From IMG/VR virus record IMGVR_UViG_3300025816_000009, positions 17,412-81,411 of that record: a stretch of 64,000 bases of DNA; one strand, 5' to 3'. Source of the stretch: a virus. A program made the position numbers and the translations under genes. Under the pieces are notes generated by a model. It had not been told where the DNA came from. It did not search any database and was given only the letters and a program-made list of their open reading frames with translations. Below are positions 1-51,924 of the stretch, piece by piece; position 1 is the first letter of the stretch, and the number at the start of each line of letters is the position of its first letter.

Positions 1-1758
1 ACTCGTGAAGGAGCGCAATTGGATTTACTCTATTATTATCGTGAAGAGATTTGCGCTGTATTCGGAATCCCGCCGATGAAACTTGGTTGGGTTCAGACAG
101 GTAAGTTAGCAAATCCCGAACAACAATTAGACGCATGGTACGATGTTGTCGAATCATATCATAATCGAGTTTCGTCTGTAATTAACAACAACATTCTTCC
201 ACTCTTAGATATTACAGATTGGAAGTTCAAGTTTATTTCAATCAGACCAAAACAAGATGGATTGAGAGCAGAGACGTTCCAAAAGAATGCGTCAGCGATT
301 TCCGCTTTGAGACAAGAAGCAACAATCTCAATCAATGAAGCAAGAAACATTCTCGGACTTGAGCGAATAGAAATAAGAGAAGCAGATAATCCATTCTTCG
401 TTTCTCCAAAATTACAAATCAATCAACCGGACGCTTTCGATAATGAACCTAGTGCAGAAACTACACCGGAAGAATCCGAAAACTTGCCCGAGGAAGCGTC
501 GTTGAGATTACTCGACCTATTCCCGTCAATAGGCATCCCCGAAGGCTACGGTCAAGGCGCGGGAGATTCACCTCAATTCGAACTTGGCGAATCTGTCGAT
601 TCTGAATTATACGAACAAATTGCGTTCAAGAAAATTGACGAACAGGATGCGTTCGAAGAAATAGAACAAGTTCGAAGCGCTTCTCTCGAATCAATGTTTG
701 AAGAAAATCAAAAGGACTTTTCTGATAGATTCATGAAAGCGCTAGATGACAGATTTAGAAACGATGAAGTCATGGTTGGTAAAGACATAGGCGCAGGCGA
801 TTTGAGATGGACGGTTCAGTTCATGGATAAAGAGTTAGAAGAATTACTCAACCAACAGACAATCGTTGCCGGTGTGGAAATGATGGGCGGTTATAGTGAA
901 ACCCTTGCCGTCGTCGGAGCAGGTGTTCCCGGTGCAGTTGGTATCGCAGTAAGCCAAGCAGATGAAGCGGCCATGTCATATTGGATGAGAAGATGGACTT
1001 TGCCTGCTTTACAGAATACACTCAACGGATTCAGAGAAAAGATTCTCGACACGTTTGACAGAATGAATACGAATGGTAAAAATTGGGCGTGGGCAAGTTC
1101 GGAAATGCGACGCATGATTGACCCGACAGGAAATAAATATCCGAAAGGATTCTATCAGAGAATCGCTAGAACCGAAACTCGTCGGGTTGTCGAATCAGCA
1201 CACATCTCCGGATTATCAAAAGCGGGAATCCAATTCGTCGAAAGATTAGTGGTTGAAGATGCGACTACCGACAAAGATTTGTGTTCACCTTTTGATGGGA
1301 CAATATATCGAGTTGACCAAGCGACAGGAATATTGCCTGCTCATCCAAATTGCAGATGTACATTAGTTGGTTATATTGGAACGCCGGATGATGTAAACAC
1401 CGACCCATTGAAACCAATTATTCCTCAACCCAAAGCCAAGCGCGTACTTACGGTCGCTGACAGAACTCCACCTCAAGGAGTTCGAAACGCCTGTAAAACG
1501 GGAATCAAACTTCACGAAGATGGTTTGAGTGGTTCGGGATTAGAAGGCGCAACCGTTCGAGAAGCAAACGCCATGATTAGAGGCCAACCGATTACTGTAG
1601 CAAAAGCGAAAAAGATGATTAGATGGTGGGGAAGAAATGCAAGATTCCTCGATGAGCCAAAAGATTCACCGGCATGGGTAGCCGCGCTATTATGGGGTGG
1701 ACGAGCCGGACTTTCTTGGTCAAGGAAATTATCAAGAGCGTTAGAGGCGGAAGAGTGA
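1..1758 (+). CDS. Portal protein C-terminal part fused to Mu F-like head morphogenesis domain (5' partial)
   Basis: The frame is open from base 1, so the N-terminus lies outside the window. The first roughly 130 residues look like the C-terminal clip/stem of an HK97-type portal (REEICAVFGIPP followed by a helical segment with SINEARNILGL), the ring through which DNA is packaged. An acidic linker follows. Residues about 370-460 match the phage Mu protein F / SPP1 gp7 minor-head domain (RIARTETRRVVESAH, then a PAHPNCRCTL metal-binding-like end). The last 100 residues (PPQGVRNACKTGI ... AALLWGGRAG) resemble a helical domain found C-terminally in phage MuF-type proteins. The next head gene starts directly after the stop. 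Portal-MuF fusions are known in phages. The family call is fairly secure; the function of the C-terminal domain is unknown. Confidence 0.8.
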   Translation, partial: TREGAQLDLLYYYREEICAVFGIPPMKLGWVQTGKLANPEQQLDAWYDVVESYHNRVSSVINNNILPLLDITDWKFKFISIRPKQDGLRAETFQKNASAISALRQEATISINEARNILGLERIEIREADNPFFVSPKLQINQPDAFDNEPSAETTPEESENLPEEASLRLLDLFPSIGIPEGYGQGAGDSPQFELGESVDSELYEQIAFKKIDEQDAFEEIEQVRSASLESMFEENQKDFSDRFMKALDDRFRNDEVMVGKDIGAGDLRWTVQFMDKELEELLNQQTIVAGVEMMGGYSETLAVVGAGVPGAVGIAVSQADEAAMSYWMRRWTLPALQNTLNGFREKILDTFDRMNTNGKNWAWASSEMRRMIDPTGNKYPKGFYQRIARTETRRVVESAHISGLSKAGIQFVERLVVEDATTDKDLCSPFDGTIYRVDQATGILPAHPNCRCTLVGYIGTPDDVNTDPLKPIIPQPKAKRVLTVADRTPPQGVRNACKTGIKLHEDGLSGSGLEGATVREANAMIRGQPITVAKAKKMIRWWGRNARFLDEPKDSPAWVAALLWGGRAGLSWSRKLSRALEAEE

Positions 1759-2130
1759 ATGTTCAAAGCATCAGCCACAGGATTGAACTTTAGTAAGTTG
1801 AGCAAGTTCGCAGGCGATTCCAATAAGAAAGTCAATAGAAATGTTTCAAGAGCAGTACAGAAAATCGCATTCAATATTCTAAGAGATGCGAAAAGAAACG
1901 CACCCATCAGAACAGGAGCGCTTAGAGCAAGTGGTCGAGTTTTAGAAATCAATAAAATGAAGCAAGAAATTGAGTTTGGTGGTAGTGGGACAGGAGTAAA
2001 CTACGCGGCGGCAATCGAATACGGGACAGGTCGAATAAGTCCCAAACCATTTCTCCGCCCGGCTGTCAAACAAAATCAAGCCGAAGCGAACCGATTACTA
2101 ATTAAGGCAGTACAAGACGGAACAAAGTGA
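1759..2130 (+). CDS. HK97 gp10-like head-tail joining protein
   Basis: A 123-residue protein with the typical HK97-gp10 layout: a basic helical N-terminus, the hallmark AKRNAPIRTGALRAS (pattern A-P-x-x-T-G-x-L-R-x-S), and a C-terminal YAAAIEYGTG ... PFLRPA motif. This family forms the neck/tail-terminator-type connector in siphoviruses. The ATG directly abuts the stop of the portal-MuF gene and the downstream gene overlaps its stop, so it belongs to a tightly packed head operon. It is unusual that it precedes the protease and capsid genes. Family assignment is firm; the exact position in the neck is inferred. Confidence 0.85.
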   Translation: MFKASATGLNFSKLSKFAGDSNKKVNRNVSRAVQKIAFNILRDAKRNAPIRTGALRASGRVLEINKMKQEIEFGGSGTGVNYAAAIEYGTGRISPKPFLRPAVKQNQAEANRLLIKAVQDGTK

Positions 2131-2297
2131 TGGACTATCGAGACAGGGAATACAAGAAGAAACCCGGTCGTTGTAGAATATGCGAGAAGAAATGGAAGAC
2201 CCCAAAGAAATCCGGCATTGTTCTGATAACGTGTGATGAATGCAGAGCAAAGATGTTGGGCAACAGTAAGAAACCCCGACGAAGGCGTAAGAAGTAA
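2130..2297 (+). CDS. Small basic zinc-ribbon protein (55 aa)
   Basis: This short frame starts with an ATG overlapping the previous stop (TGATG) and ends in a TAA overlapping the next ATG. Such translational coupling on both sides supports it being real. The product has two CxxC knuckles, CRIC near residue 15 and CDEC near residue 35, and a very basic tail ending RRRRKK. This suggests a small nucleic-acid-binding zinc ribbon. Similar tiny CxxC proteins occur at 3091 and 47304 in this genome. No specific function can be assigned. Confidence 0.6.
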   Translation: MDYRDREYKKKPGRCRICEKKWKTPKKSGIVLITCDECRAKMLGNSKKPRRRRKK

Positions 2298-2740
2298 TGC
2301 CGAGGAACTTTCGCAAACTCAACATCCGAAGGTATGTCGGAACTGTTCCCAATCTAACTTACGCATTTGCTAACTTCACAAATATGACTCCAAACGAATT
2401 GTTGAATAATTACAAGGATTATGCAAACGGTGATTCGATAGGCGGAACGGGAACGACACGAACTCCATTAGGAGCGACCGTACATATAGATTCAAGCGCA
2501 CCTAGATTATTGGGAGCATTCCCCGGCGGTGGGATGAATACGACAGGATATACAAATACGAGAATCGCCGCTGTCTCTCAAGTTCCACTACAGACACCCC
2601 AATTGACAGTCGCCGGAACGATTCTTGCGACACCGACGAATCTAACTTTTTCACCATGGGGCGGAACAGGAACTTTGGATAATGCAGTTAATGGAAAAGC
2701 CACGCGATTGCTAAGGCCAATGTTTGTAAAAGTGGTCTGA
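2297..2740 (+). CDS. Hypothetical virion-module protein (147 aa)
   Basis: Not recognised. It is translationally coupled to the zinc-ribbon gene (TAATG) and lies at the end of the first head operon, so a structural role such as capsid decoration or neck is plausible but unproven. The sequence is rich in Gly, Thr, Asn and Pro (for example FPGGGMNTTGYTNT and FSPWGGTGT), which suggests a beta-rich extracellular or virion protein. No transmembrane segment or cysteine pair is visible. The stop codon falls inside the 5' arm of a strong hairpin (2737-2766). Confidence 0.6.
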   Translation: MPRNFRKLNIRRYVGTVPNLTYAFANFTNMTPNELLNNYKDYANGDSIGGTGTTRTPLGATVHIDSSAPRLLGAFPGGGMNTTGYTNTRIAAVSQVPLQTPQLTVAGTILATPTNLTFSPWGGTGTLDNAVNGKATRLLRPMFVKVV

Positions 2741-2779
2741 CGTATTCATAGCGGTTGCCGCGTCAGTCGTTCGCTGTAC
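2737..2779 (-). ncRNA. sR1: candidate small RNA, class-2 initiator
   Basis: On the minus strand a TATA box (TTTATAAC starting at 2804) is followed at the standard distance by CAGTACAG, the initiator also seen at sR9 and sR12. The predicted transcript has no open frame and folds into a two-storey hairpin: CTGACG/CGTCAG (2737-2742 with 2761-2766) enclosing GCGG/CCGC. The hairpin could equally be the terminator of the plus-strand head operon ending at 2740. Promoter geometry is seen directly; the RNA itself is inferred. Confidence 0.35.
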
Positions 2780-2795
2780 TGCCCTCACGCTTTCT

Positions 2796-2835
2796 AGTTA
2801 TAAACCTTTTCATTGATAGATTGTGAAATTGATAT
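2796..2835. promoter_or_regulatory. Dual-box promoter with minus-facing TATA
   Basis: CATTGATA (2811-2818) and AATTGATA (about 2827-2834) lie 16 bp apart, next to a minus-strand TATA box (AAGGTTTATAAC, 2797-2808). No good TATA box faces the plus strand. It is one copy of the cassette repeated through the genome and would drive sR1. Confidence 0.5.
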
Positions 2836-2841
2836 TGGGTT

Positions 2842-2890
2842 AGATTCCCCCCGTTCGTTATCACGAGTAGTTTCGGGGGGGATTCTTTTT
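2842..2890. terminator. C6/G7 hairpin with T-tract
   Basis: AGATTCCCCCC (2842-2852) faces GGGGGGATTCT (2875 on), giving a long GC stem followed on the plus strand by CTTTTT. On the minus strand it lies just beyond sR2 and may terminate it. The same AGATTCCCCCC arm recurs in the terminator at 32459. Confidence 0.5.
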
Positions 2891-2906
2891 CGATGTGTTT
2901 TAAGCA

Positions 2907-2999
2907 TCAGAGTCCGGATTTGCACCGGCAGGTTCGCGACACCGGCCTGTCCTAAATTACCCGACCGAAGCCGGGCGCAGACGCCTCTCCCAAACTGAA
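2907..2999 (-). ncRNA. sR2: candidate structured small RNA
   Basis: Minus-strand TATA TTTATAAC near 3019 is followed 24 nt on by TCAGTTTG, a variant of the TTAGTTTG initiator found at eight other loci. The predicted RNA contains a UUCG-capped hairpin (CCCGGC-TTCG-GTCGGG, 2960-2975) and a CCGG-TGCAAAT-CCGG hairpin (2914-2928). The latter resembles a tRNA T-arm, but no acceptor stem can be built. It ends before the C/G hairpin at 2842-2890. It has no coding frame of note. No function is known. Confidence 0.45.
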
Positions 3000-3011
3000 C
3001 GGGTCGCTTTC

Positions 3012-3070
3012 TAGTTATAAAACTTTCTATTGAGATATTGTAATATTGATAAATAGAAACCTTAATAAGC
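3012..3070. promoter_or_regulatory. Bidirectional dual-box promoter (sR2 / 54-aa gene)
   Basis: TATTGAGA (3029-3036) and TATTGATA (3044-3051) sit between a minus TATA (3012-3022) and a plus TATA (TTAATAAGC from 3062). The plus TATA is 29 nt upstream of the ATG at 3091, the spacing that recurs across the genome. Confidence 0.6.
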
Positions 3071-3090
3071 AAAGCACTACAGGAACAAAC

Positions 3091-3255
3091 ATGATAACCC
3101 ATGAACATAATTGCGCCAATTGCTACAAAGCAACGACTAACGAGATGATAATTAATACCATTTCATTTACAATGTGTGAGGCTTGTGAAGAAAAAATAAA
3201 TGCGTCATTTGCGGCAAAAAGAGAAGAAGAAGAAGAATACGGTTCTATTAAGTAG
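3091..3255 (+). CDS. Small zinc-ribbon protein (54 aa)
   Basis: The start at 3091 is chosen because the ATG lies 29 nt after the TATA box and carries the AACAAAC-ATG context. The longer frame from 3046 would run through the promoter. The protein has CANC near residue 8 and CEAC near residue 34, a likely zinc ribbon, and an acidic tail (EEEEEYGSIK). It directly precedes the Mom-like gene with 20 nt between them, so the two are probably co-transcribed. Function unknown. Confidence 0.6.
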   Translation: MITHEHNCANCYKATTNEMIINTISFTMCEACEEKINASFAAKREEEEEYGSIK

Positions 3256-3275
3256 GTGGGTCTTTACCGATTGGC

Positions 3276-3953
3276 ATGGCTAAATCAGTCAAAGAGTATC
3301 ACGTCAAACCATGTGATGTTTCGGTTATTAGGCCATTTATTGAAAAGTGGCATTATTCTAAATCAATAAACGGGGTTCGTTCCTCGTATTGTTTTGCTAT
3401 GTGGGAAGGAGACGAATCACATTCGAGAGTTCTAGTCGGCGCTATGCTTTACGGAATGCCGGGCATGGCGAACGCTTGGAAGCCTTATGGTGAAAAAGAA
3501 TCTGATGTTTTAGAATTACGCCGTCTCTGTTGCATTGACGATACGCCTCAAAATGCTGAATCATATTTTATTGGTAAGACTCTGAAATGGTTAAAAAATA
3601 ATACGCTTGTCAAAAATATAGTCTCATATTCTGATATGAATCACGGTCATGAAGGAACGATATACAAAGCGTCGAACTTTCGACATGATGGCATTACCTC
3701 TCCGGGACGAGTAATTATCAGATTGTCAGATGGGAAACAATATCACGACAAAACAATCCGAACAATGTACAATGGAAAATTAAAACCATTCGCTCAAAAA
3801 ATCAAGGAACAATTAGAAAACGGGGAAGCCGAATATAGAAATACAGTCGGGAAGAATATATTCGTATATGAACTCAAAAGAAAAAAACATCACAACGTCA
3901 TTCCGGTTTCTCCAAATGTTGAATCGTTAAGTTTCGAAGAATGGTTTAATTGA
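3276..3953 (+). CDS. Mom-like DNA-modification acyltransferase
   Basis: A 225-residue protein resembling the phage Mu Mom family. Mom is a GNAT-related enzyme that modifies adenine in viral DNA and protects it from host nucleases. Visible family features are WHYSKS near residue 25, the block VLELRRLCCIDDTPQNAES leading into FIGKTLKWLK, and IVSYSDMNHGHEGTIYKASNF around residues 117-137. The start follows a GGTGGG-containing leader. It sits between a dual-box promoter and the protease gene, so it may be expressed from its own promoter. The C-terminal 60 residues are not recognised. The family is well supported by motif order; the actual modification and substrate are not known. Confidence 0.7.
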   Translation: MAKSVKEYHVKPCDVSVIRPFIEKWHYSKSINGVRSSYCFAMWEGDESHSRVLVGAMLYGMPGMANAWKPYGEKESDVLELRRLCCIDDTPQNAESYFIGKTLKWLKNNTLVKNIVSYSDMNHGHEGTIYKASNFRHDGITSPGRVIIRLSDGKQYHDKTIRTMYNGKLKPFAQKIKEQLENGEAEYRNTVGKNIFVYELKRKKHHNVIPVSPNVESLSFEEWFN

Positions 3954-3997: not shown

Positions 3998-5596
3998 ATG
4001 GAACTAAGCGGAGCAATCAATATCAAAGACCAAGACAAGTTCGATTCCCTCGACCTTCCTTCCCAAGATGTTCAGATTGAGTATAGAATAATCACACCTT
4101 TCGTCGTTAAGGCTTACGAAGATGACGAGAAGAAAAATGCAGATGTCATGATTAGAGGACCTGTATATGTGGGCGACAAGGATATGCTCGACAGGCATAA
4201 TGAACTTGTTGACTATGAAGCGATGATGGCGGCTTGGGATAAGTATTCCAAGAATCCGGTTATCTTATACAACCACTCTAAGACATACGGAGTTATTGGA
4301 AAAATGACTAATGTCTCCATGGATGAATGGGAAGATTATGGAACTGTTCCAATCGGAACTGCTATGATTGACAGTGGTGAAAAAGACATCACAAGAAAAA
4401 TACAGAAGGGAATGCTCAAGGCTTTCTCAATCGGATTCATAGCAAAAGCGGCAGTCAAGATTTGTGAAGACAAGGAAGATGACTGTTATATCAGATTCAC
4501 CGAGATTGATTGGGTCGAGACTTCGGTCGTCGATGTGCCGGCATCTCCGGGCGCATTATTTTCAGTTGAGAAAAAGTTCAGTTGGAAGAATGGAAAATCA
4601 CTTGGGGAGAAAGTGGGATGTGGATGTGGATGCAAAGGCGAGACTATTGAGTCCAATAGTTGCGAAGGAAAAGTTTCTGACAGCGCTGAAAACTTGTCCG
4701 AGAAAGAAATGGTCGGTGTTGATATTTACACAACAGAAGAGGAAGCATTAGCGAGAGCCGAAGAATTAGGTTGTTCCGGATTTCACACAATGGAAAATGA
4801 TGAGGGAGAAACCCTCTATATGCCGTGTAGTAGCCATGATGACTATGAATCTAGTACCGGAGATAGTGAGGAAGTGGAACTGTCAGCGAACGATTTGGTT
4901 AAGAACCCCGACTCACACCCATTGGATTCAACGGAGTCAACAGATATGTCAACAACCGAAGAGAAATCCATCAGCGAGGACGCTGAAACTATCGACGAGC
5001 CTATAGTAGAAGAGGCAGTTGTAGAGGAACAAACAGTAGAACTAACAGCAGATGAAACAATTATTGAAACTAAGGATGCAGAAGAAGCAGTCGAAGAGGA
5101 AGTAGTTGAAGAGGAAGTAGTTGACGAAGTAGTCGAGACTAAAGAAGCAGAGGCTACAGAAGAAGAATCAGCAACCCCATCCGGTGTTGAGGTTCTAATG
5201 GAAGTTGTTGGTGTTCTGAAAGAACTCAATGACAGGATGACCAAAATGGAATCCGCAGTTGACGCAACCGCTACATTAGAGAGCGAGATTGCAGAACTAA
5301 AATCAGTCGTCGAAGCAAGAGACGCAACAATCTCTGAATTAACAGAAGCAAAGAGTGTTGCAGAACAAGAAGCAGAGATTGAATCAGAAGTTTCAAAGAG
5401 AGTCGCAAAGACTCTATCAGAAGTAGGTGTTGAAGTAGAAGCACCTATCGCAAGCAGAAAGTCAGCAATAGTTGACACCGTAGTTGCTGACGTAAACAAA
5501 GCAAGTAGATTCGACCCACAGCCCAATGTAAGTCCCGGTATGAACGGCCTTGCTAAATGGCTAGAGGCTAACTTAGCGGGCAAGGGTAGAAACTGA
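3998..5596 (+). CDS. Prohead protease fused to scaffold-like acidic coiled-coil region
   Basis: Residues 1 to about 200 resemble the S78 (HK97/U35) prohead protease: catalytic-type His in LYNHSKT (about residue 91), Ser in KAFSIGF (about 143) and the acidic ET-SVVDVPASP segment (about 175). It should cleave the scaffold and capsid N-termini during maturation. A Cys-rich GCGCGCK stretch follows, then a small domain (EEALARAEELGCSGFHT ... YMPCSSHDDY) seen in other phage head proteins, a roughly 120-residue Glu/Val-rich low-complexity region, and a coiled coil near 400-460. The tail ends near PQPNVSPGMNGLAKW. This layout suggests that protease and scaffold are one polypeptide. It lies immediately upstream of the major capsid gene, as in HK97-type viruses. 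Confidence 0.8.
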   Translation: MELSGAINIKDQDKFDSLDLPSQDVQIEYRIITPFVVKAYEDDEKKNADVMIRGPVYVGDKDMLDRHNELVDYEAMMAAWDKYSKNPVILYNHSKTYGVIGKMTNVSMDEWEDYGTVPIGTAMIDSGEKDITRKIQKGMLKAFSIGFIAKAAVKICEDKEDDCYIRFTEIDWVETSVVDVPASPGALFSVEKKFSWKNGKSLGEKVGCGCGCKGETIESNSCEGKVSDSAENLSEKEMVGVDIYTTEEEALARAEELGCSGFHTMENDEGETLYMPCSSHDDYESSTGDSEEVELSANDLVKNPDSHPLDSTESTDMSTTEEKSISEDAETIDEPIVEEAVVEEQTVELTADETIIETKDAEEAVEEEVVEEEVVDEVVETKEAEATEEESATPSGVEVLMEVVGVLKELNDRMTKMESAVDATATLESEIAELKSVVEARDATISELTEAKSVAEQEAEIESEVSKRVAKTLSEVGVEVEAPIASRKSAIVDTVVADVNKASRFDPQPNVSPGMNGLAKWLEANLAGKGRN

Positions 5597-8816: not shown

Positions 8817-8941
8817 TTAGTTTGTAGGAAGACGCGACACGACATCGACCCGGACGCGCCCTTTACTAGACGCTGTTGAAAAATACTCGCATGAAAGGGA
8901 CATGGATGGCGCTATTCACGCTCCGTCTTCCTACGACTTAA
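8817..8941 (+). ncRNA. sR4: candidate structured small RNA
   Basis: Plus-strand TATA TTTATAAC (from 8794) is followed 24 nt on by TTAGTTTG. The RNA is closed by an 11-bp perfect helix, GTAGGAAGACG (8824-8834) with CGTCTTCCTAC (8924-8934), extended outward by TTAG/TTAA. The 3' arm overlaps the last codons of the opposing methyltransferase gene. Bases 8808-8826 are nearly identical to the start of sR14 (reverse strand near 45955), so the two loci share ancestry in their promoter/start segment. Confidence 0.55.
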
Positions 8942-9485
8942 TTCTATCAAAGACCATCAACGTGTTTTTGAACCACCAAAAACTTGAGTCTTTTCTAATT
9001 TGTAATGTATCGGCGAGATGCAAACTGAATCCTCGTCTCGCCATCTCCGCGATTATCACTTCATTCGGTTGTTCGTTTACGTGATAATATCCACCTTGTC
9101 CGGGAATTGCCCAAGATACAATTGCTCTGTTCAAACAAGTTTTACGGATGTTGTGAAGTAAATCTTGTTGCCTATTGGGTGGAATATGCTCGCCGACTTC
9201 TAGGCAGAGGATGTTCGCTCTGTCAAGTTCGACCAACTCTTCGGCCAAATCGACTTGGTGAATTGGATGAAATCTTGCGAGATGTTCTAGCGGCGTTCCT
9301 TCGAATCCTTCAACTTCGAAACCTTGCGTCGAAAGTGATACGCAATAATCTCCCGGTCCACAACCGAAGTCATAGATTGGTTCGTCCATTGGAAAATATT
9401 TCCACAAGTTTTTCATAAGGTCGGGGTCAGAACCATGCTGACCATCCGCTTCTTCGACATTCCAAATCCCGGTCGGTCCTACCAT
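8931..9485 (-). CDS. Class I SAM-dependent methyltransferase
   Basis: About 184 residues from the ATG at 9485 (MVGPTGIWN), which lies 5 nt after the stop of the upstream reverse gene; a longer frame would overlap that gene. Motif I is DFGCGPGDY near residue 40, motif II-like EVEGFEGTP follows, and LCLEVGEHIP is a motif-IV-like acidic segment. The substrate is not evident. It is the last gene of the reverse-strand cassette with the glycosyltransferase, so it may act on a glycan or virion protein. Small FkbM or UbiG-type sugar methyltransferases are possible alternatives. Confidence 0.65.
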   Translation of the reverse strand: MVGPTGIWNVEEADGQHGSDPDLMKNLWKYFPMDEPIYDFGCGPGDYCVSLSTQGFEVEGFEGTPLEHLARFHPIHQVDLAEELVELDRANILCLEVGEHIPPNRQQDLLHNIRKTCLNRAIVSWAIPGQGGYYHVNEQPNEVIIAEMARRGFSLHLADTLQIRKDSSFWWFKNTLMVFDRIKS

Positions 9486-9489
9486 TGAC

Positions 9490-9876
9490 TCACTTCTTCT
9501 TTTTGGAGCGATTTCCGAAAGCCTTTCTTTTACCATCGGCTATGTCTTTTCGTTTCGCCATTTTCTTTGTTTCTTCCTTTAGTCTCTTAGTTATGACAGC
9601 GCCGGGTAAAACTTGTTGAGTAATTGGGTCATATTTGTAATAACCCGGATGACGTGCCTCACGGCGTTCTCTCATACAAATATCACAATAGTGCGTTGAG
9701 TCCTTGGTATGTGAGAACTTTTGCTTGACACCTTCGACGAATAATGCTCTTTCAAGCGCTTCTTGTCTTCCGTCTCCATATCCCATTCCGATTATGCAGG
9801 GACGACCGTGAGTCTTGCATGGTTCTCCGCATAATTTTGTTGGCTTTGATACTCTCTTAATTTCTCGTTGCTCCAT
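9490..9876 (-). CDS. Cys-containing basic protein of unknown function (128 aa)
   Basis: Not recognised. It has cysteines at CGEPCKTHGRPC (residues about 16-27) and YCDICMRERREARHPG (about 63-78), arranged like a zinc-binding module, and a very basic C-terminal third ending RSKKKK. It lies 1 nt from the glycosyltransferase and 5 nt from the methyltransferase, so the three are one operon. A nucleic-acid-binding or HNH-like zinc fold is possible, but catalytic residues are not clear. Confidence 0.55.
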   Translation of the reverse strand: MEQREIKRVSKPTKLCGEPCKTHGRPCIIGMGYGDGRQEALERALFVEGVKQKFSHTKDSTHYCDICMRERREARHPGYYKYDPITQQVLPGAVITKRLKEETKKMAKRKDIADGKRKAFGNRSKKKK

Positions 9877-9877
9877 A

Positions 9878-11185
9878 TTATATCACCCTTGACATTCCGC
9901 CTAGCGGATGTATTTCAATTGCAGTCTTCAATATCTGCTTTTCTAATTGGTCAGTTAGAACATCCCAATTGAAGTTCTTCTCGGCAAACTTTCTCGCGTT
10001 CTCTCCGAACTCTTTTCTTTCTTCATCTTGTTCGTAAGCCGTTCGCATTTTCCAAGCGAGGTCTTCAATATCGACTAATGTCATATTGACTCCCCATTGA
10101 GGTCCTGTAATGTGAGTAGAGGACTTAGCAATCCAACCGCGTCGTTGAGGTCCGTAGCCGACAAGTTCCGGACCTGTTGAGTTATCGGGAAGAATGATTG
10201 GCTTTCCGCAGGCCATGGCTTCTGCTGATGGAATACCAAAACCTTCTCCGCCTGTAGCCATGATATGAACATCACATGATTGGAACAATCTCGCCATCTC
10301 TTCTGTTGTCAATCCCGAAAGTGGATTCGAACTTGTATCAGAGAAAGCGACGTAATCGCCTAAGTCGTATTGAGCGATAAGAGCCGGAAGATTCCAACCG
10401 CCCATTCCGAACGTGTCTGTCGGGTCGCCACAGTGTAGAACCAAGCCGACACTTTCGGGAACATCGGGATTGTAATGAATGAATTGTGAAAATGCTTCTA
10501 ACAACCGGGGTATTTGCTTCCGATTTGTATTTCTTGCCACACTCATAAACACGAAATCCCACTTAATTCCCATCTTCTCTTTTAGTTCCGCTTTTTCCTC
10601 GTCGGTGATTGGTTTGAAAATATCAAGTTCGACACCGTGATACAAAACCGGCGTATCTTCTGTAAGATAACGGTCGAGGATTCCATCTCTGTTTTCAACC
10701 GGCCTTGTTCCTTCGGATGAATAATCTTTTACAAACTCGGTGAAAGTTCTTTTTCCAAACTTGCTCATCCACATCGGCGTGTGAACCATTTTCAGAATAT
10801 CCTTCCAAGCCGGAGATATTGGAAATCCGTCTATTGGAAGATAAGCAATATAAGGGATTGACATTTTGTTTGTTGACATTACCGCATGACCAATATACCA
10901 AGGGTCAATTAAAGAAATGTAAATATCAATATCAAGTTTCTTTATTGTAGCCTCGAGAACTGTTGGGCTATTCGGTCCGCCCAAGTTTTCAGACCCATAC
11001 CCGGAGATACCGGCGTGAACCATAGTCCATCCTTCGGGGTGAAGAAAATCCTCGCCGTTGTAATCCCAACCCATAACGAAAACTTCGTGGCCTTTGGCTA
11101 CTAATCTCTTAATCAAGTTTCGACTTACGATTCCATATCCCGTTGGTCTTGTAGGTTGCTCGCTTCCCCATAGGATTCTCACCAT
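9878..11185 (-). CDS. GT4-type glycosyltransferase (GT-B fold)
   Basis: From the ATG at 11185 (MVRILWGSEQPTRPTGYG) the protein has about 435 residues. The N-terminus has the GT-B glycine turn (PTGYGIVSRN). The C-terminal half has the SVARNTNRKQIPRLLEAF donor-site strand and the family E-x7-E element in GEGFGIPSAEAMACGKPI with a later PE. It should transfer a sugar from a nucleotide donor, possibly onto a virion protein or modified DNA. Alternative ATGs at 11227/11230 overlap the HNH gene; the shorter start is chosen because GT4 enzymes usually begin just before the first beta strand. Confidence 0.75.
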   Translation of the reverse strand: MVRILWGSEQPTRPTGYGIVSRNLIKRLVAKGHEVFVMGWDYNGEDFLHPEGWTMVHAGISGYGSENLGGPNSPTVLEATIKKLDIDIYISLIDPWYIGHAVMSTNKMSIPYIAYLPIDGFPISPAWKDILKMVHTPMWMSKFGKRTFTEFVKDYSSEGTRPVENRDGILDRYLTEDTPVLYHGVELDIFKPITDEEKAELKEKMGIKWDFVFMSVARNTNRKQIPRLLEAFSQFIHYNPDVPESVGLVLHCGDPTDTFGMGGWNLPALIAQYDLGDYVAFSDTSSNPLSGLTTEEMARLFQSCDVHIMATGGEGFGIPSAEAMACGKPIILPDNSTGPELVGYGPQRRGWIAKSSTHITGPQWGVNMTLVDIEDLAWKMRTAYEQDEERKEFGENARKFAEKNFNWDVLTDQLEKQILKTAIEIHPLGGMSRVI

Positions 11186-11216
11186 GTCTTTCGGTTGAAA
11201 CCCACTACTATAACAG

Positions 11217-11762
11217 TTATGATTCATCAATGGAAGGGCCGGGCATATTTTGTTTGTCTTTCAATTCCGCCTTTCTTTTTTCTCGGACTCTTTGTCTTTT
11301 TTTCTTTTGAGACTTGCGTCGAGATTTGATTGCGTTTACTCGGAGCGGGTCATCAATGGTATCGAGGTCAATAGTCTGTTTTCCCCCAACGTGTTCCGGA
11401 CCCTTGCCGACAAGTTTCTGTTCGTAGTGATGAATCCGATGACAATTTGAACAGAGGATGTCGCACTTCGCCATCTCTTCTTCGATTCTTTTTCTTGAAT
11501 ATCCATTACTTACCAAGTGCGAAACGCCGGCAGTTTTAGTTCCGGCAACACGATGATGATATTCTAAAAGCCAAGGACAAGTTTCGCCGCTCAATCCACA
11601 TTCCGAACAATTTGATTCTCTTCTGATTTCATCATACCAACGTCGAATATTCTTACGACGCAACGCAACTTCTGTCTTGCGTTTCTTTGCGTTATTTGCA
11701 TAATAGACCTTCTGATAACGGCGATTGTACGCCCTTCGCTTATCAGCGTCCTTGTACGGCAC
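11217..11762 (-). CDS. HNH endonuclease
   Basis: A GTG start at 11762 gives an N-terminus VPYKDADKRRAYNRRYQ, the typical (M)PYKDxxKRRAY opening of phage HNH proteins; an upstream TTG is less likely. The nuclease core has zinc pairs CSEC (about residue 52) and CSNC, the catalytic-type LEYHH at about 67, and CDILCSNCHRIHH near residue 105. The C-terminus is Lys/Arg-rich. It is the first gene of the reverse cassette, 28 nt after candidate RNA sR5. Roles could be homing-like cutting or a packaging-associated HNH; the terminase is outside the window. Confidence 0.75.
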   Translation of the reverse strand: MPYKDADKRRAYNRRYQKVYYANNAKKRKTEVALRRKNIRRWYDEIRRESNCSECGLSGETCPWLLEYHHRVAGTKTAGVSHLVSNGYSRKRIEEEMAKCDILCSNCHRIHHYEQKLVGKGPEHVGGKQTIDLDTIDDPLRVNAIKSRRKSQKKKRQRVREKRKAELKDKQNMPGPSIDES

Positions 11763-11789
11763 GATTGATTCGAGCAAGTTTGAGGTTAT

Positions 11790-12334: not shown

Positions 12335-12736
12335 ATGGCGGTTCATGCGTTTACAGGAATCACAGGGCAAATAACAGTTAGTGGAACAATAGTCGGTTTC
12401 GTTTCGGGTGATTTTACAGTAGCAAGAGCGACAGGAAAATACATTACTCTCGGTTCAAACTTGCCGACAGCGAATACACGAGGATTACAATCAGTTAGCG
12501 GTAGTCTGACGAAAGCATGGGGTCTATCAGACGACACTCTATGGGATTGGTTTTACGGAGACACCGAACTTGTAATCGCATTTGACGCAGATGACCCATC
12601 TAGCGGCGGAACTCATACATACACAGTCTCCGGATGTGTTATTACAGATTTAGCAATTGAAGGCTTGGAAGCAGGCGCAGAAGGAGCATTGATGATTAAT
12701 GCGTCTTTCGAAGGACTATCAATCTTGAGAGATTGA
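12335..12736 (+). CDS. Major tail (tube) protein
   Basis: A 133-residue beta-rich protein with ITGQITVSGTIVGFVSGDFTVARATGKYI near the N-terminus, LQSVSGSLTKAWGLSDDTLWDWFY in the middle and a C-terminal LMINASFEGLSILRD. This pattern (start of tube barrel, substitution of small polar beta strands, terminal strand with xINxSF) is usual for phage major tail proteins. It directly precedes the frameshifted chaperone and tape measure, the canonical gene order of siphovirus tails. Confidence 0.7.
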   Translation: MAVHAFTGITGQITVSGTIVGFVSGDFTVARATGKYITLGSNLPTANTRGLQSVSGSLTKAWGLSDDTLWDWFYGDTELVIAFDADDPSSGGTHTYTVSGCVITDLAIEGLEAGAEGALMINASFEGLSILRD

Positions 12737-12746
12737 GTAAATTAAG

Positions 12747-13094
12747 GTGATTAAGATGACAGGATGGTTAAACTCCGCGCTCGAGAGGGCTTCGAACCCA
12801 ATAACAGTGAATGTAGCCGACTTAGGTTTAGAAGTCGATGAACTACAGGTGAAGACACTTAGCGCCGCCGAGTTTCAAATAATGAAGAAAGACCCTGCCA
12901 TATCAAACATGAACATCGCTGATAGGCAAGAATATATGGGCTTGAAAACTATCTATGAAATGTTAGCAAAATGCGATGACAGTTTGAAATGGTCAGAGTT
13001 TCAAAAATTACCTTTACAATTACTTTCAGAACTAGCGTCGAGAATAACTGAAACCGTCGGAAACTTGGACGGTGAAGGTGTTTTGGGAAACTGA
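12747..13094 (+). CDS. Tail assembly chaperone, short form (gpG-like)
   Basis: 115 residues ending at the TGA at 13092. It is mainly helical with VNVADLGLEVDELQVKTLSAAEF at the start, a typical opening for gpG-type chaperones that bind the tape measure protein. The start may be GTG 12747 or ATG 12756; AAGGTG precedes the latter. The reading frame carries G_GGA_AAC directly before its stop, allowing a -1 extension. Position between tail tube and tape measure agrees. Confidence 0.7.
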   Translation: MIKMTGWLNSALERASNPITVNVADLGLEVDELQVKTLSAAEFQIMKKDPAISNMNIADRQEYMGLKTIYEMLAKCDDSLKWSEFQKLPLQLLSELASRITETVGNLDGEGVLGN

Positions 13095-13309
13095 AACTTG
13101 ACGCCGAATCAGACGGCGGGCAGTTCCTCTATGGGCTATTGACCGAAATAGGTTGTACGCCTCAACAGTGGAGAGAAATGTCGTCAGAAGATACACTTTG
13201 GTACATATCAGCCCATAGTGAGAAAAACCGTCGCGCAAATGAATCGTCTCGTAAGCAATCGCAGATGGCGAAGGCGAGAAGTAATTTGGCGAAAAGTAGG
13301 AGACGATGA
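12747..13309 (+). CDS. Tail assembly chaperone, -1 frameshifted long form (gpGT-like)
   Basis: Slipping back one base at 13085-13091 lets ribosomes bypass the TGA and read on in the -1 frame to the TGA at 13307-13309, adding about 72 residues: KLDAESDGGQFLYGLLTEIG, then a CTPQQWREMSSEDTLWYISAH helix region and a basic end (SNLAKSRRR). This extension has no good start codon of its own and resembles the T domains of GT chaperones, which contact the tape measure. Its stop overlaps the tape-measure ATG. The conservation of this arrangement in tailed phages is established; use in this virus is inferred. Confidence 0.65.
13085..13091 (+). promoter_or_regulatory. Programmed -1 ribosomal frameshift heptamer G_GGA_AAC
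   Basis: In the zero frame the codons are TTG GGA AAC TGA, giving an X_XXY_YYZ slippery site immediately before the stop. After slipping, the next codons are CTG AAA CTT and the frame stays open for 72 codons. Confidence 0.7.
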
Positions 13310-15681
13310 ATATGGTTATGGGTGCAGGGAAAACGGCTGTCAATGCAGTTGTCTCCGCTGACGCTTCCGGTTATACAAAAGCCATGAAAGGAGTCGCCGC
13401 GGCAACAGGAACGGCAACTACGGCGGCTAAGGGATTCGGTGGAGCATTAGCCGGATTAGCCATCACCTTCGCAACTTTCTTCGCAGTTTTCAAAGCCATC
13501 GGTTTCGTTGTCAACACAGTCAAACTATTCATTGATTTTGAGGAACAACTTTTCCGCACAAGTGCGATTATGAAACAGTTCACACTTGGAGCAGAAGAAC
13601 AGGCTATCGCCATGGGTAAACTAGAAGACGAAATCCGAAGCGTTGCGGCAGGTTCGAAGTTCACAGCGACAGAAGTCGGCGCTATGGCTGAAACTCTAGC
13701 GCTTGCCGGTTTGTCGCTTGACCAAATGAGAGGTGCGACATCCGATTTAGACACGGAAGCCGGAAATGCTCTGAAAACAATGGTTGACTTCGCGGTTGTT
13801 GCCGGAACAGATGTTGAGACTGCGGCGGGAATTGGTATTGCATCTCTCAAAGCATTCAGACTTGATATTCAAGACCTAGAAAGAGCAACATCAGTATTGG
13901 CAAACACCTTCACTTCTTCTTTCGTGAACCTACAACAATTGGGTGATTCCATGCGTTTCTTCGGTCCTACTGCGGCGGCGGCAGGTGTGAGCATATCAGA
14001 AGCGGCGGCGGCTGTAGGTGCGCTTGGAGACGCGGGATTGCAGGGTTCTATGGCCGGTACGGGTCTTAGGCAGGCAATCAACAAATTAATCGCTCCGACA
14101 GATGATGCGAGAAGAACCATGGAGAGATTAGGATTTGAGTTTACGGTTTTATCACCGGCGGGCTTGGCGGCGAAAGAGGCACTAGGTTCGACAATCAGAA
14201 CCATTGACGATTTAGAAAAAACAATTTCGTCAGCGAACATGGAACTCAAATCTCTGAACAACGAATTAACCGACATGAGTATTGAAGAGGAAAAGAACTC
14301 AATCAACATCGCAAGGATTCGTCAAAGAGCGGCTAGGCAAAACCGAAACTTGACTAAAACCGAAATGGCTACAATCAAAAGATTGGAATCGGCCAATGAA
14401 GATTTAGCACTTGCTCAAAGAGAAGGTGCGTTGGAATCGAGACAAAGAGAAAGAGCGTTAGACAGGTCAACAGATTCGCTTGCAGAGCAGAATGACGCTT
14501 TCAAGATTCTCAAAGATACTGTCGATAGTCAAACCACAGGTGTCGGTAGTTTAGTCGATATGATAGAAGAACTGAATAGTTCCGGCGCTACGACAGCGGA
14601 GATATTGGAAATCTTCGGTGTTCGAGGTGGTGGTTCGATATTGGCTCTCCAAGGAAACGCCGAGGCTCTAAGGTCAATAGCAGAAGCGAATCAATTAGTA
14701 TTCGACGCGACTGATATGAATAACACACTACAAGACCAATTCGTTAGACAGTTAGAAGGCTCAACGGCTTTCGCGCTTGCTGAAACTCGTTCGAAGTTCG
14801 AGGAATTATCTTTGGTTATTGGTGAACCATTTGCTCGCTTGATAACAATGGAAGGTGGGATTAAGCAAACCCTCGATGCGGCAATTGAGAGAGCGTCGGG
14901 AATGGGCGATGAGTTTCAAATGATTGCTGATTCGGTCGAGACTGAATTATTGCCTGCGTTTGCAGAGGCTTTCAAACCCGGCAACGTGGAGAAGTTTGTT
15001 GAAATACTCGGCGCATTAGTTCCGGAAATATTGAAAATAGTTGGGGTCATTGGAAAATTAGCAGAGATAATAGAACCAATACTCGATGGTATTTTAGCAG
15101 TTATGGAGAAGATGGCCGAGTTCAAAGATTTCGTCGGTGATGATAACGAGGATAGAGAAACTAGGTTAGTCGGGAAGGAAGGCGAAACAACATTCGATTC
15201 TGTAAAAGACGTCGGGAAGATGACTGCGGCGGGAGCGGGAGTTGGCGCGTTGGTTGGTGGTCCTGTAGGCGCGTTAGCCGGAGCGGCTGTTGGTTTGGGT
15301 GCGGGTGTTGTTTTTGAAGTCGGGCAAGCAGTTGTTCATCATGGTGGAAATGCTTTAGATAATGAAACAGACATAATGGGAAATCCGGTAGGAATGCCGA
15401 TGGCAATTGGTGGAGTTGTTAACTCTCCAATTACAGCATTGATTGGGGAAGCCGGTCCGGAAGCAGTTATTCCGCTCGATAGGCTTCCGGAAATGGTAAG
15501 TCAAATTAATTCCACAAGTTCGACCTCAAATACCGAGCAGGTGATTAACCTCACTTTCGACTCAATCAATATCGGGGCGGGAAACAACGTCTCGGCGGGA
15601 GATATAAGGCAGATTATTGAAAATGAAATGCCTAAGATTATACGCAGTTCATTAACAAGAGGCGTTCGGGGGGTGTTGTGA
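13306..15681 (+). CDS. Tape measure protein
   Basis: A 791-residue protein with the family layout: an N-terminal hydrophobic segment (GGALAGLAITFATFFAVFKAIGF is split in two by length here, residues about 44-66), then the TP901-type domain (DFEEQLFRTSAIMKQF, SKFTATEVGAMAETLALAG, AAAVGALGDAGLQGSMAG), a long coiled coil (about 300-390, ISSANMELKSLNNELTDMS), and glycine-rich hydrophobic stretches near 640-670. It sets tail length and may aid DNA ejection. At roughly 1.5 angstrom per residue it suggests a tail of about 120 nm. It begins inside the stop of the GT extension. Confidence 0.85.
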   Translation: MNMVMGAGKTAVNAVVSADASGYTKAMKGVAAATGTATTAAKGFGGALAGLAITFATFFAVFKAIGFVVNTVKLFIDFEEQLFRTSAIMKQFTLGAEEQAIAMGKLEDEIRSVAAGSKFTATEVGAMAETLALAGLSLDQMRGATSDLDTEAGNALKTMVDFAVVAGTDVETAAGIGIASLKAFRLDIQDLERATSVLANTFTSSFVNLQQLGDSMRFFGPTAAAAGVSISEAAAAVGALGDAGLQGSMAGTGLRQAINKLIAPTDDARRTMERLGFEFTVLSPAGLAAKEALGSTIRTIDDLEKTISSANMELKSLNNELTDMSIEEEKNSINIARIRQRAARQNRNLTKTEMATIKRLESANEDLALAQREGALESRQRERALDRSTDSLAEQNDAFKILKDTVDSQTTGVGSLVDMIEELNSSGATTAEILEIFGVRGGGSILALQGNAEALRSIAEANQLVFDATDMNNTLQDQFVRQLEGSTAFALAETRSKFEELSLVIGEPFARLITMEGGIKQTLDAAIERASGMGDEFQMIADSVETELLPAFAEAFKPGNVEKFVEILGALVPEILKIVGVIGKLAEIIEPILDGILAVMEKMAEFKDFVGDDNEDRETRLVGKEGETTFDSVKDVGKMTAAGAGVGALVGGPVGALAGAAVGLGAGVVFEVGQAVVHHGGNALDNETDIMGNPVGMPMAIGGVVNSPITALIGEAGPEAVIPLDRLPEMVSQINSTSSTSNTEQVINLTFDSINIGAGNNVSAGDIRQIIENEMPKIIRSSLTRGVRGVL

Positions 15682-39394: not shown

Positions 39395-40285
39395 ATGGCT
39401 AAGAAGAAGAAGACTGATTATTCAGCATTAATAGCAACGGCAGATACGGGAACATCAATGGCGGAGAGCAAACCACTTCGTCATATGAAATTACAGGCAT
39501 TTCCGGGCGGTGGAAAATCACACTTCTCTCTGTCCTTTTTCGACCATGAAATGAAAACTGCCGGCTTGAAACCGGAAGAAGGATTGATGACTATTATTGA
39601 TTGTGATTTAGAAGGCCAAAGAGATTTGGTTGCTCGAGATGACATACTATCTCCGGAACTTCGCCCACGACTTTACAGAAAAGTTTGCCGAACACCCGAA
39701 GAAGTAAACCAAATGGTTCTAGCATTTATCGACTTGCACCGACAACACGCCGAAGAACATCCGGATGGCGTCCGTGTAATGTGTATGGAAAATGAAGGCG
39801 CGTATTATCTCGCTTGTCGTGATTATTACTCGATTGAAGTTCATGGAAAATCAGAGGCAGAACAATTACTATCTCGACAGGCTCAAGCAATTTCAGAAGG
39901 GAAGAAAACTCTCCCTATGTTTGCCGAAGGTCAAATGCACTCTTACAAAGTTATTAACAAAATGTTCTTTCAACCATACGAGAGATTGAAGGTTGGTGCG
40001 GAGATTTACAAATATCATTTCATCTCCACCGTTCTTTTGAAATCTTACACCGAAGGATATGGAACTGCAAATGAGAATCGTGTAGTCGCCGCGGCCGGAC
40101 GTGCTGATTTGACAGACCCTTTGTTTGATTGGATTATAGAATTGACTCAACAACAGAGGACAGTGAAGGGCGAATTAAAGACGCGCCACGTATCTGAAAT
40201 CAGAAAATCAAGAACTTGTAAACCGTTCAGAATAGAGAACCCAACACAAGAGAAGTTTTGGAATGCCGTAAAAAAGCAATCCTAA
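39395..40285 (+). CDS. Sak4/RecA-like ATPase
   Basis: 296 residues with Walker A FPGGGKSHF (about residue 36), a Walker B-type TIIDCDLEG and a following core of RecA type. It lacks the long N- and C-terminal domains of RadA, matching phage Sak4 single-strand annealing-associated ATPases, which work with an SSB. The SSB gene is directly upstream and a Cas4/RecB-like nuclease is downstream, forming a recombination module. Start has the standard spacing from TTAAATAGG. Confidence 0.65.
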   Translation: MAKKKKTDYSALIATADTGTSMAESKPLRHMKLQAFPGGGKSHFSLSFFDHEMKTAGLKPEEGLMTIIDCDLEGQRDLVARDDILSPELRPRLYRKVCRTPEEVNQMVLAFIDLHRQHAEEHPDGVRVMCMENEGAYYLACRDYYSIEVHGKSEAEQLLSRQAQAISEGKKTLPMFAEGQMHSYKVINKMFFQPYERLKVGAEIYKYHFISTVLLKSYTEGYGTANENRVVAAAGRADLTDPLFDWIIELTQQQRTVKGELKTRHVSEIRKSRTCKPFRIENPTQEKFWNAVKKQS

Positions 40286-50557: not shown

Positions 50558-50680
50558 CATTGATAGACCGATACATTGATAAGTAAAGATGCACAGGACA
50601 GGATAAGAGGTGAGCCACGAGGACTGACATGAGAATATTGAGAAAGTGAGTGATTGAGAAATCAAAACATTCATAAGTAA
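50558..50680 (+). promoter_or_regulatory. Promoter region of the MoxR-like gene
   Basis: CATTGATAG (50558-50566) and ACATTGATAAG (50573-50583), 16 bp apart, followed by a second TATA-like CATTCATAAG (50669-50678). The GCACAGGACAGG initiator-like segment after the first TATA leads into no gene, so two start sites are possible. The second TATA places transcription start near 50690, ahead of the conserved leader. Confidence 0.45.
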
Positions 50681-50686
50681 TGATGG

Positions 50687-50736
50687 ACTCGTTCAGCCCG
50701 AAGGGTATAGCCCGAAAAAAACGGAGAGAAAAAAAT
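50687..50736 (+). promoter_or_regulatory. 50-nt conserved leader of the MoxR-like gene
   Basis: ACTCGTT, four variable bases, CCG-n-AGGGTATAGCCCGA, then CGGAGA and an A-run before the ATG. Almost the same sequence and length precede the VWA gene at 53064. It contains a GGG/CCC hairpin and a GGAGA Shine-Dalgarno, unlike the leaderless-type starts elsewhere. Confidence 0.6.
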
Positions 50737-51924
50737 ATGCAACTAGAAGATGCGATGAGAGATACAGTGAGAAGTGCAGGTGGTAGGATTTCAGAGACGG
50801 ATTACGTCAATGGTATTCTTGCTACTCTACACGCAGACGGAGCGCAAACAACCGAGACGTCTGTAAGAGCGAACGCCTTTGCTAAAGGTAGAATGGATAA
50901 AGCAGGGGTCATAAGAGTTTCAGTGGGCGCGGGTAATACTGCGATAAAAGAGATATGGACTCAAAAAATGGCTAACGATATGATGACAGGAAACATGGCT
51001 AACATCAGCGGTGGAAGCGCGGTTTCGTCAGTACAAACATCACAGACGCCTACATCAACTAAAGTTTGGTTAGGAATCCCTTACCAAAACCAAGAAGAAT
51101 TATCAGAAGCGGCTTTAGCATTAGTGCCTAAAGTAGCACCCGGATTTATTTCATCACCTAACGATGAACTTGGTGGAATGGCTGACGCTTTCTTAGAAGG
51201 TGAACACATGATTTTCGAAGGACCTAAAGGATGCGGTAAAACTATCGCAGTCGCTCAATTCTGTTTCCACACAGGACTTCCAATGTACAGATTCAATTGT
51301 TCAGAAGGAATTACAGAAGACGACTTGGTTGGTTCAAAAGAAGCAATCGACGGCAACACAGTATGGGTTGACGGTATCATTCCTCGTTGGGCTAAGACAG
51401 GCGGAATCCTGTTTGCTGATGAGTTCAATGGCGCTTCACCTTCTGTTATGCTATGGATGCACATGGGAATGGATTCCGGAACTATCGTTCTTCCAACAGG
51501 CGAGAAAATCGACCTTCACCCAACTTGCAGAGTAGTAGCGGCAATCAACCCGCCGGAAGATTATGCGGGGCTTGAAGAATTAAACGAGGCTACTCGTGAT
51601 AGATATGCTCTAGGATTAGAGTTCGATTACCTGCCTGCTTCCGATGAGCAGAATGTAATCATGGACCAATCCGGCAACTTCGAATCACAATTGGCTCGAG
51701 AGATTGTTCAACTAGCAAACGACTTGCGTCGAATGAAGAAAGATAGAACTCTTTCTCGCGATACATCAACTCGTTCTCTAGTACAAATCATGAAACTTGC
51801 TAAGAGACAGAATCAAGAAAAAGCGGTTGAAAGAGCGCTTATCTCAAAGTTCGACAGAATGGAGAGAGACACGGTGCGTACTGCTTGCAGAGCGCGTCTC
51901 TCAAACTTCGGAATAGTTCAGTAA
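50737..51924 (+). CDS. MoxR-like AAA+ ATPase
   Basis: 395 residues from ATG 50737 (MQLEDAMRD), after the conserved leader; the frame from 50680 would translate the leader. The core has Walker A GPKGCGKTI (about residue 161), RFNCSEGITEDDLVGSKE, Walker B ILFADEFNGA (about 223), and VVAAINPPEDYAGLEELNEA with a following arginine (RDRY). MoxR/CbbQ ATPases remodel partner proteins together with VWA-domain proteins. The VWA protein at 53115 shares its leader and is its likely partner. The N-terminal 130 residues may be winged-helix like. Confidence 0.8.
   Translation: MQLEDAMRDTVRSAGGRISETDYVNGILATLHADGAQTTETSVRANAFAKGRMDKAGVIRVSVGAGNTAIKEIWTQKMANDMMTGNMANISGGSAVSSVQTSQTPTSTKVWLGIPYQNQEELSEAALALVPKVAPGFISSPNDELGGMADAFLEGEHMIFEGPKGCGKTIAVAQFCFHTGLPMYRFNCSEGITEDDLVGSKEAIDGNTVWVDGIIPRWAKTGGILFADEFNGASPSVMLWMHMGMDSGTIVLPTGEKIDLHPTCRVVAAINPPEDYAGLEELNEATRDRYALGLEFDYLPASDEQNVIMDQSGNFESQLAREIVQLANDLRRMKKDRTLSRDTSTRSLVQIMKLAKRQNQEKAVERALISKFDRMERDTVRTACRARLSNFGIVQ

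Follow-up and report, generated by a model that had tools for sequence, protein, structure and literature searches.

A predicted lambda G/GT-type −1 frameshift in the tail assembly chaperone of an archaeal-type virus and its relatives

Does a tailed virus carrying archaeal replication genes produce its tail assembly chaperone in two forms, as lambda does, through ribosomal slippage at the end of the first reading frame? The question is raised by two overlapping frames in a stretch of 64,000 nucleotides (referred to below as the window), which is part of an 81,411-bp IMG/VR record, itself perhaps incomplete. The results presented below argue that the two forms, G and G-T, are very probably made by −1 slippage of the lambda G/GT type, and we put the probability of this reading at about 0.93.

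Anatomy of the predicted shift site and its gene neighbourhood

The first frame encodes a predicted G-like tail assembly chaperone of 112 residues (12756..13094, + strand) which starts at the ATG at 12756, while a GTG at 12747 lies upstream in the same frame. Its 3′ end reads GTT TTG GGA AAC TGA, with the stop at 13092-13094, so that the heptamer G_GGA_AAC (13085..13091, + strand) stands in the slippery phase and adjoins the zero-frame TGA. The −1 frame is open over 13091..13309 (+ strand), comprising 72 codons and a TGA, and this T-like extension is predicted to be made only as a G-T fusion. Its stop (13307-13309) overlaps the tape-measure ATG at 13306 in the sequence ATGA. The initial annotation had described the TTG GGA AAC TGA end, the heptamer directly before the stop and the 72-codon −1 extension reaching the tape-measure start, and every number was found to be exact.

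The position of this heptamer within its gene is singular in the window. The 38 coding sequences on the + strand (15,375 codons) contain 26 in-phase heptamers of the X_XXY_YYZ form, and the one at 13085 is the sole one touching a stop codon and the one followed by the longest −1 extension; at this density, chance would place about 0.13 of them in the final two codons of a gene, summed over all 38. Further + strand copies of GGGAAAC occur at 3732, 15579 and 46363, of which only that at 15579, within the tape-measure gene, is in the slippery phase, and there the −1 frame is shut after 11 codons. A separate in-phase A_AAA_AAG of the E. coli dnaX type was noticed at 40270-40276, 6 nt ahead of the stop of the ORF 39395-40285, with a −1 frame open for 12 codons only.

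The two frames occupy the place expected of tail assembly chaperones, in the order tail tube, G, T, tape measure, with the second ORF in the −1 frame. The tail tube (major tail) protein is encoded at 12335..12736 on the + strand; its match to PF18906 (Phage_tube_2, E=1.2e-5) is marginal, at 25.5 bits just below the 27-bit cutoff, and PHROG 290 (tail) is matched with E=1.3e-6. The tape measure protein of 791 residues (13306..15681, + strand) matches PF10145 (E=1.9e-27) and a PHROG tape measure family (E=5.2e-38). No sequence match was obtained for G or T among the Pfam and PHROG chaperone families, nor did anything convincing emerge when 13 T members were scanned against Pfam and 13 G and T members against PHROG. 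Likewise, a tblastn search with G in named phages returned nothing significant, and profile comparison with the G proteins of lambda, HK97, HCTV-1 and 019DV002 gave no significant match. The AlphaFold model of G (pLDDT 76) has as its first-ranked fold in the PDB the HK97 tail assembly chaperone 2ob9, with a weak E value of 0.42, and several named tail assembly chaperones are among its top BFVD matches. The T model is all-helical (pLDDT 89); one of its matches is to the frameshifted chaperone in Bacillus phage 019DV002, with a TM score of 0.67 and an E value of 0.92, which is below significance. Such model-based matches are weak when taken singly, and they are consistent with the chaperone role suggested by gene position.

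According to the proposed mechanism, most ribosomes would terminate at the TGA at 13092 and release the 112-residue G. On a minority of ribosomes, the tRNA-Gly on GGA and the tRNA-Asn on AAC would move back in tandem by one base, onto GGG AAA, and these ribosomes, which would be those of an archaeal host, would continue in the −1 frame to give a 184-residue G-T fusion with the junction peptide GVLGNLKLDAESD. Since the zero-frame stop follows the heptamer directly, termination would compete with slippage. By analogy with lambda, many copies of G and a few of G-T would coat the tape measure protein, recruit the tail-tube subunits and depart before the tail is completed.

Elements that might stimulate the slippage lie on both sides of the heptamer. 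Just upstream, in a Gly-rich linker, the sequence GGTGAAGGTG (13071..13080, + strand) may act as an internal Shine-Dalgarno-like stimulator, and a G-rich tract resembling GGTGGTGGT is present in most relatives. Downstream, 10 nt after the heptamer, RNA folding suggests a possible 5-bp hairpin, CGCCG-AATCAGA-CGGCG (13102..13118, + strand), as a candidate stimulator. The 50 nt of this region fold no better than shuffled sequences (z=-0.4), a stretch of 90 nt shows a modest advantage over them (z -2.7), and the 5-bp hairpin of the window is not kept in the relative L007. Over 50 nt, strong hairpins (z -3.4 to -4.4) were found in L012, L031 and L032; a search across the relatives revealed no single conserved stimulatory stem-loop.

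Conservation, coding selection and alternatives to slippage

Two scans of IMG/VR yielded about 30 distinct contigs, many of them near-identical, which represent some 14 distinct junctions (in L030 the contig end cuts T). A G ORF and a T ORF in the −1 relation are present in all of these roughly 30 loci, with identity falling to about 40%, and a slippery heptamer stands at the same place in every relative lineage. The loci were checked both for loss of the heptamer and for a separate start of the second frame, and the claim of frameshifting was supported, the −1 relation and the heptamer being kept throughout. Because some 14 distinct relatives retain both ORFs, their −1 relation and the heptamer at the same place, the site is not a matter of chance.

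A detail that is new concerns the heptamer itself, since each relative belongs to one of two classes, G_GGA_AAN or G_GGG_GAA, and the class can change even between near relatives. GGGAAAC is found in the window group, L007, L024, L010 and L011, GGGAAAG in L009/L026 and GGGAAAA in L012 and L029, while GGGGGAA is found in the L014 group, L030-L032, L033/L034 and L035-L044. The chaperones of L029 and L034 are 93% identical in G and 98% identical in T, yet L029 carries GGGAAAA and L033/L034 carry GGGGGAA, which indicates that the shift site was switched recently.

Purifying selection acts on the two frames to a similar degree. Among the relatives, dN/dS was 0.03-0.27 for the T frame and 0.09-0.20 for the G frame, mostly 0.1-0.25, and the substitutions in the T frame fall mostly at third codon positions. 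In 13 aligned T sequences a G, the TPQxWR motif and an A are invariant, and the C-terminal end is basic. At the heptamer, the preceding codon is TTG, CTG, GTG or ATG (Leu, Val or Met) and always has G as its last letter, and the codon following Gly encodes Asn, Lys or Glu but is restricted to AAN or GAA. The nucleotides are thus more conserved here than the protein, as a slippery site predicts.

These data allow us to weigh other ways in which the T frame could be expressed. If ribosomes terminating on G reinitiated at its stop or nearby and so made T as a separate protein, the heptamer would be incidental, and a start codon should be found at the overlap; indeed, two relative lineages (the L014 group and L030-L032) have TAATG there and several others have GTGA, which would provide a −1-frame start at the stop. 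The window reads CTGA, however, and at least five other lineages likewise lack ATG, GTG or TTG at this place (having GTA or CTG instead). In the −1 frame of the window none of these three codons occurs before 13139, and the first ATG, at 13178, lies inside the conserved TPQxWRE(M/L) motif. The same was observed for the window group, L007, L024, L009/L026, L010 and L034 together: the overlap ahead of the conserved T domain contains no ATG, GTG or TTG, and the nearest downstream starts are within that domain. Moreover, the start codon varies between the near relatives L010 (GTA) and L011 (GTG) while the heptamer is constant. An overlap start that is present in only some relatives, and that differs even between L010 and L011, cannot serve as the shared mechanism, and we consider reinitiation very improbable as an account of this locus. 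In the window lineage, the second ORF lacks a start of its own and is under coding selection in the −1 frame.

At the G stop of L014/L015/L016/L017/L037 and of L030/L031/L032 the sequence is GGGGGAATAATG, in which the heptamer, the stop and the −1-frame ATG overlap. This TAATG stop-start overlap makes reinitiation possible in these two lineages. They might use both routes, frameshifting for G-T and reinitiation for free T, given that G_GGG_GAA co-occurs with TAATG in the L014 group and L030-L032; this combination, read from sequence, would concern the relatives and not the window, and we regard it as unlikely. As for a single gene whose frame was disrupted by a mutation or a sequencing error, a one-base shift would likewise appear as two overlapping ORFs, but some 30 loci, drawn from many metagenomes, are interrupted at the identical position, keep the −1 relation and have both frames under selection, which leaves this explanation a negligible chance. 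Sequencing error and a separate start were accordingly both rejected on the grounds of conservation. Transcriptional slippage is thought unlikely; it usually requires a longer homopolymer run. Slippage of the ribosome at the heptamer is thus the reading that we retain, and the −1 shift of the lambda G/GT arrangement proposed in the initial annotation is supported by the anatomy of the site, the conserved heptamer, the selection on both frames and the gene order.

The virus and its putative host

That the genome carries archaeal replication genes, as had been noted from the sequence, was supported by its RFC small subunit (1.4e-58 to Pyrococcus RFCS) and by its PolB. In the phage collection, the latter is nearest to the polymerases of HCTV-5, HCTV-1 and HVTV-1 (haloarchaeal Druskaviridae), and in the PDB to Pyrococcus/Thermococcus-type polymerases. 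Each of the four longest relative records, those exceeding 40 kb, encodes RFC (51-58% identical), and three of them also encode PolB. The window also encodes an XPD-like helicase (Helicase_C_2), an ERCC4/HHH nuclease, and a pair made up of a CbbQ/CobS-like AAA protein (50680-51924) and a CobT-type VWA protein (53115-55283), as in HCTV-1 genes 56-57. The terminase and tape measure proteins, in turn, are closest to those of bacterial phages, and for this reason the archaeal host can only be inferred. Scans of genome contigs with the chaperone alignment and with RFC found no provirus or host genome and thus gave no host link.

Poseidoniales are a plausible putative host. In Magrovirales, the viruses of Poseidoniales, the replication and morphogenesis modules are transcribed in opposite directions and the genome measures 90-110 kb (PMC12999244, PMC10768690). 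This layout differs from that of the window, where both modules lie on the + strand of a record of 81,411 bp.

Several other features of the genome were recorded. A Mom-family protein (3276-3953; PF25680, E=9e-33), possibly an adenine hypermodification enzyme, has its gene flanked by the portal/MuF region and the gene for the prohead protease. Within the protease ORF (Peptidase_S78, 3998-5596) there is a DUF3721 stretch, and its tail is long, acidic and of low complexity. A minus-strand gene island at 8931-11777, within the plus-strand head-tail module, encodes a group 1 glycosyltransferase, a methyltransferase and other proteins. Ahead of the window, bases 236-3806 of the record (L047) encode two proteins with collagen repeats (PF01391, 1.5e-46 and 8.5e-11), which are likely fibres.

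Comparison with known G/GT systems

In lambda, −1 tandem slippage takes place near the end of G, as is predicted for the window; in both, the G and T frames lie between the tail tube and tape measure genes (V-G-T-H in lambda), and the T frame runs into the beginning of the tape measure gene. The lambda heptamer is G_GGA_AAG, whereas that of the window ends in C and is followed directly by the stop, and lambda has no detectable sequence similarity to the window G. Bacillus phage 019DV002, whose terminase is among the nearest in the phage collection, resembles the window in having an annotated joined chaperone gene just ahead of the tape measure and a similar predicted T fold, but it differs in its A-rich shift region and in its bacterial host and replication. 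The second heptamer class of the relatives, which is not that of the window itself, coincides with the G_GGG_GAA of actinophage chaperones, whose hosts are bacteria. GGGGGAA (“fivetwo”) occurs at about a thousand joined-gene sites of the SEA-PHAGES collection, where the second tRNA re-pairs with a G:U pair (PMC10885494, PRFect), and it has also been proposed for corynephage phi16 (PMC5506516).

The closest parallel is found in viruses of haloarchaea. For HVTV-1, HCTV-1, HCTV-2 and HCTV-5, G/GT-type −1 frameshifting goes back to a prediction of 2013 and has been covered by reviews of 2016 and 2021 (PMC5009743, PMC8211752). The HCTV-1 heptamer is G_GGA_AAC, identical to that of the window (PMC5009743); we read the same heptamer from the HCTV-1 record, in which the joined gene is annotated. 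Hardycor1 carries G_GGA_AAT (PMC7911831). HCTV-1, HCTV-2, HCTV-5 and HVTV-1 thus resemble the window in being archaeal viruses with a predicted −1 G/GT shift and the nearest PolB. Their G and T proteins, however, are not detectably similar to those of the window by profile, their hosts live in high salt, and in HCTV-1, unlike in the window, two extra genes separate T from the tape measure. The initial annotation was therefore right in placing a lambda-type site in an archaeal-type genome, but the novelty that it implied was overstated in view of these published predictions. A literature search combining frameshifting with magroviruses found a single paper, which mentions frameshifting in its reference list only, and within this search frameshifting thus seems not to have been described in marine archaeal viruses.

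Experimental proof of frameshifting in archaea exists for very few genes (PMC8211752), and a site as conserved, short and portable as this one would therefore be well suited to reporting slippage in archaea under ordinary conditions of salt and temperature. A broader reading, which we offer as speculative and rather doubtful, is that within one non-halophilic family of archaeal-type viruses the site switches between G_GGA_AAN and G_GGG_GAA and TAATG adds reinitiation in two lineages. On this view, archaeal ribosomes would arrive at one and the same chaperone ratio through two kinds of slippage chemistry and perhaps by a third route as well. Taken together, since G/GT shifts with the same heptamer were previously published for archaeal viruses, the present finding adds to a known kind. 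Beyond the tailed viruses of haloarchaea, the G/GT frameshift would now be attributed to a second family of archaeal-type viruses, apparently not halophilic, and the window and its relatives reveal which parts of a G/GT site are under selection.
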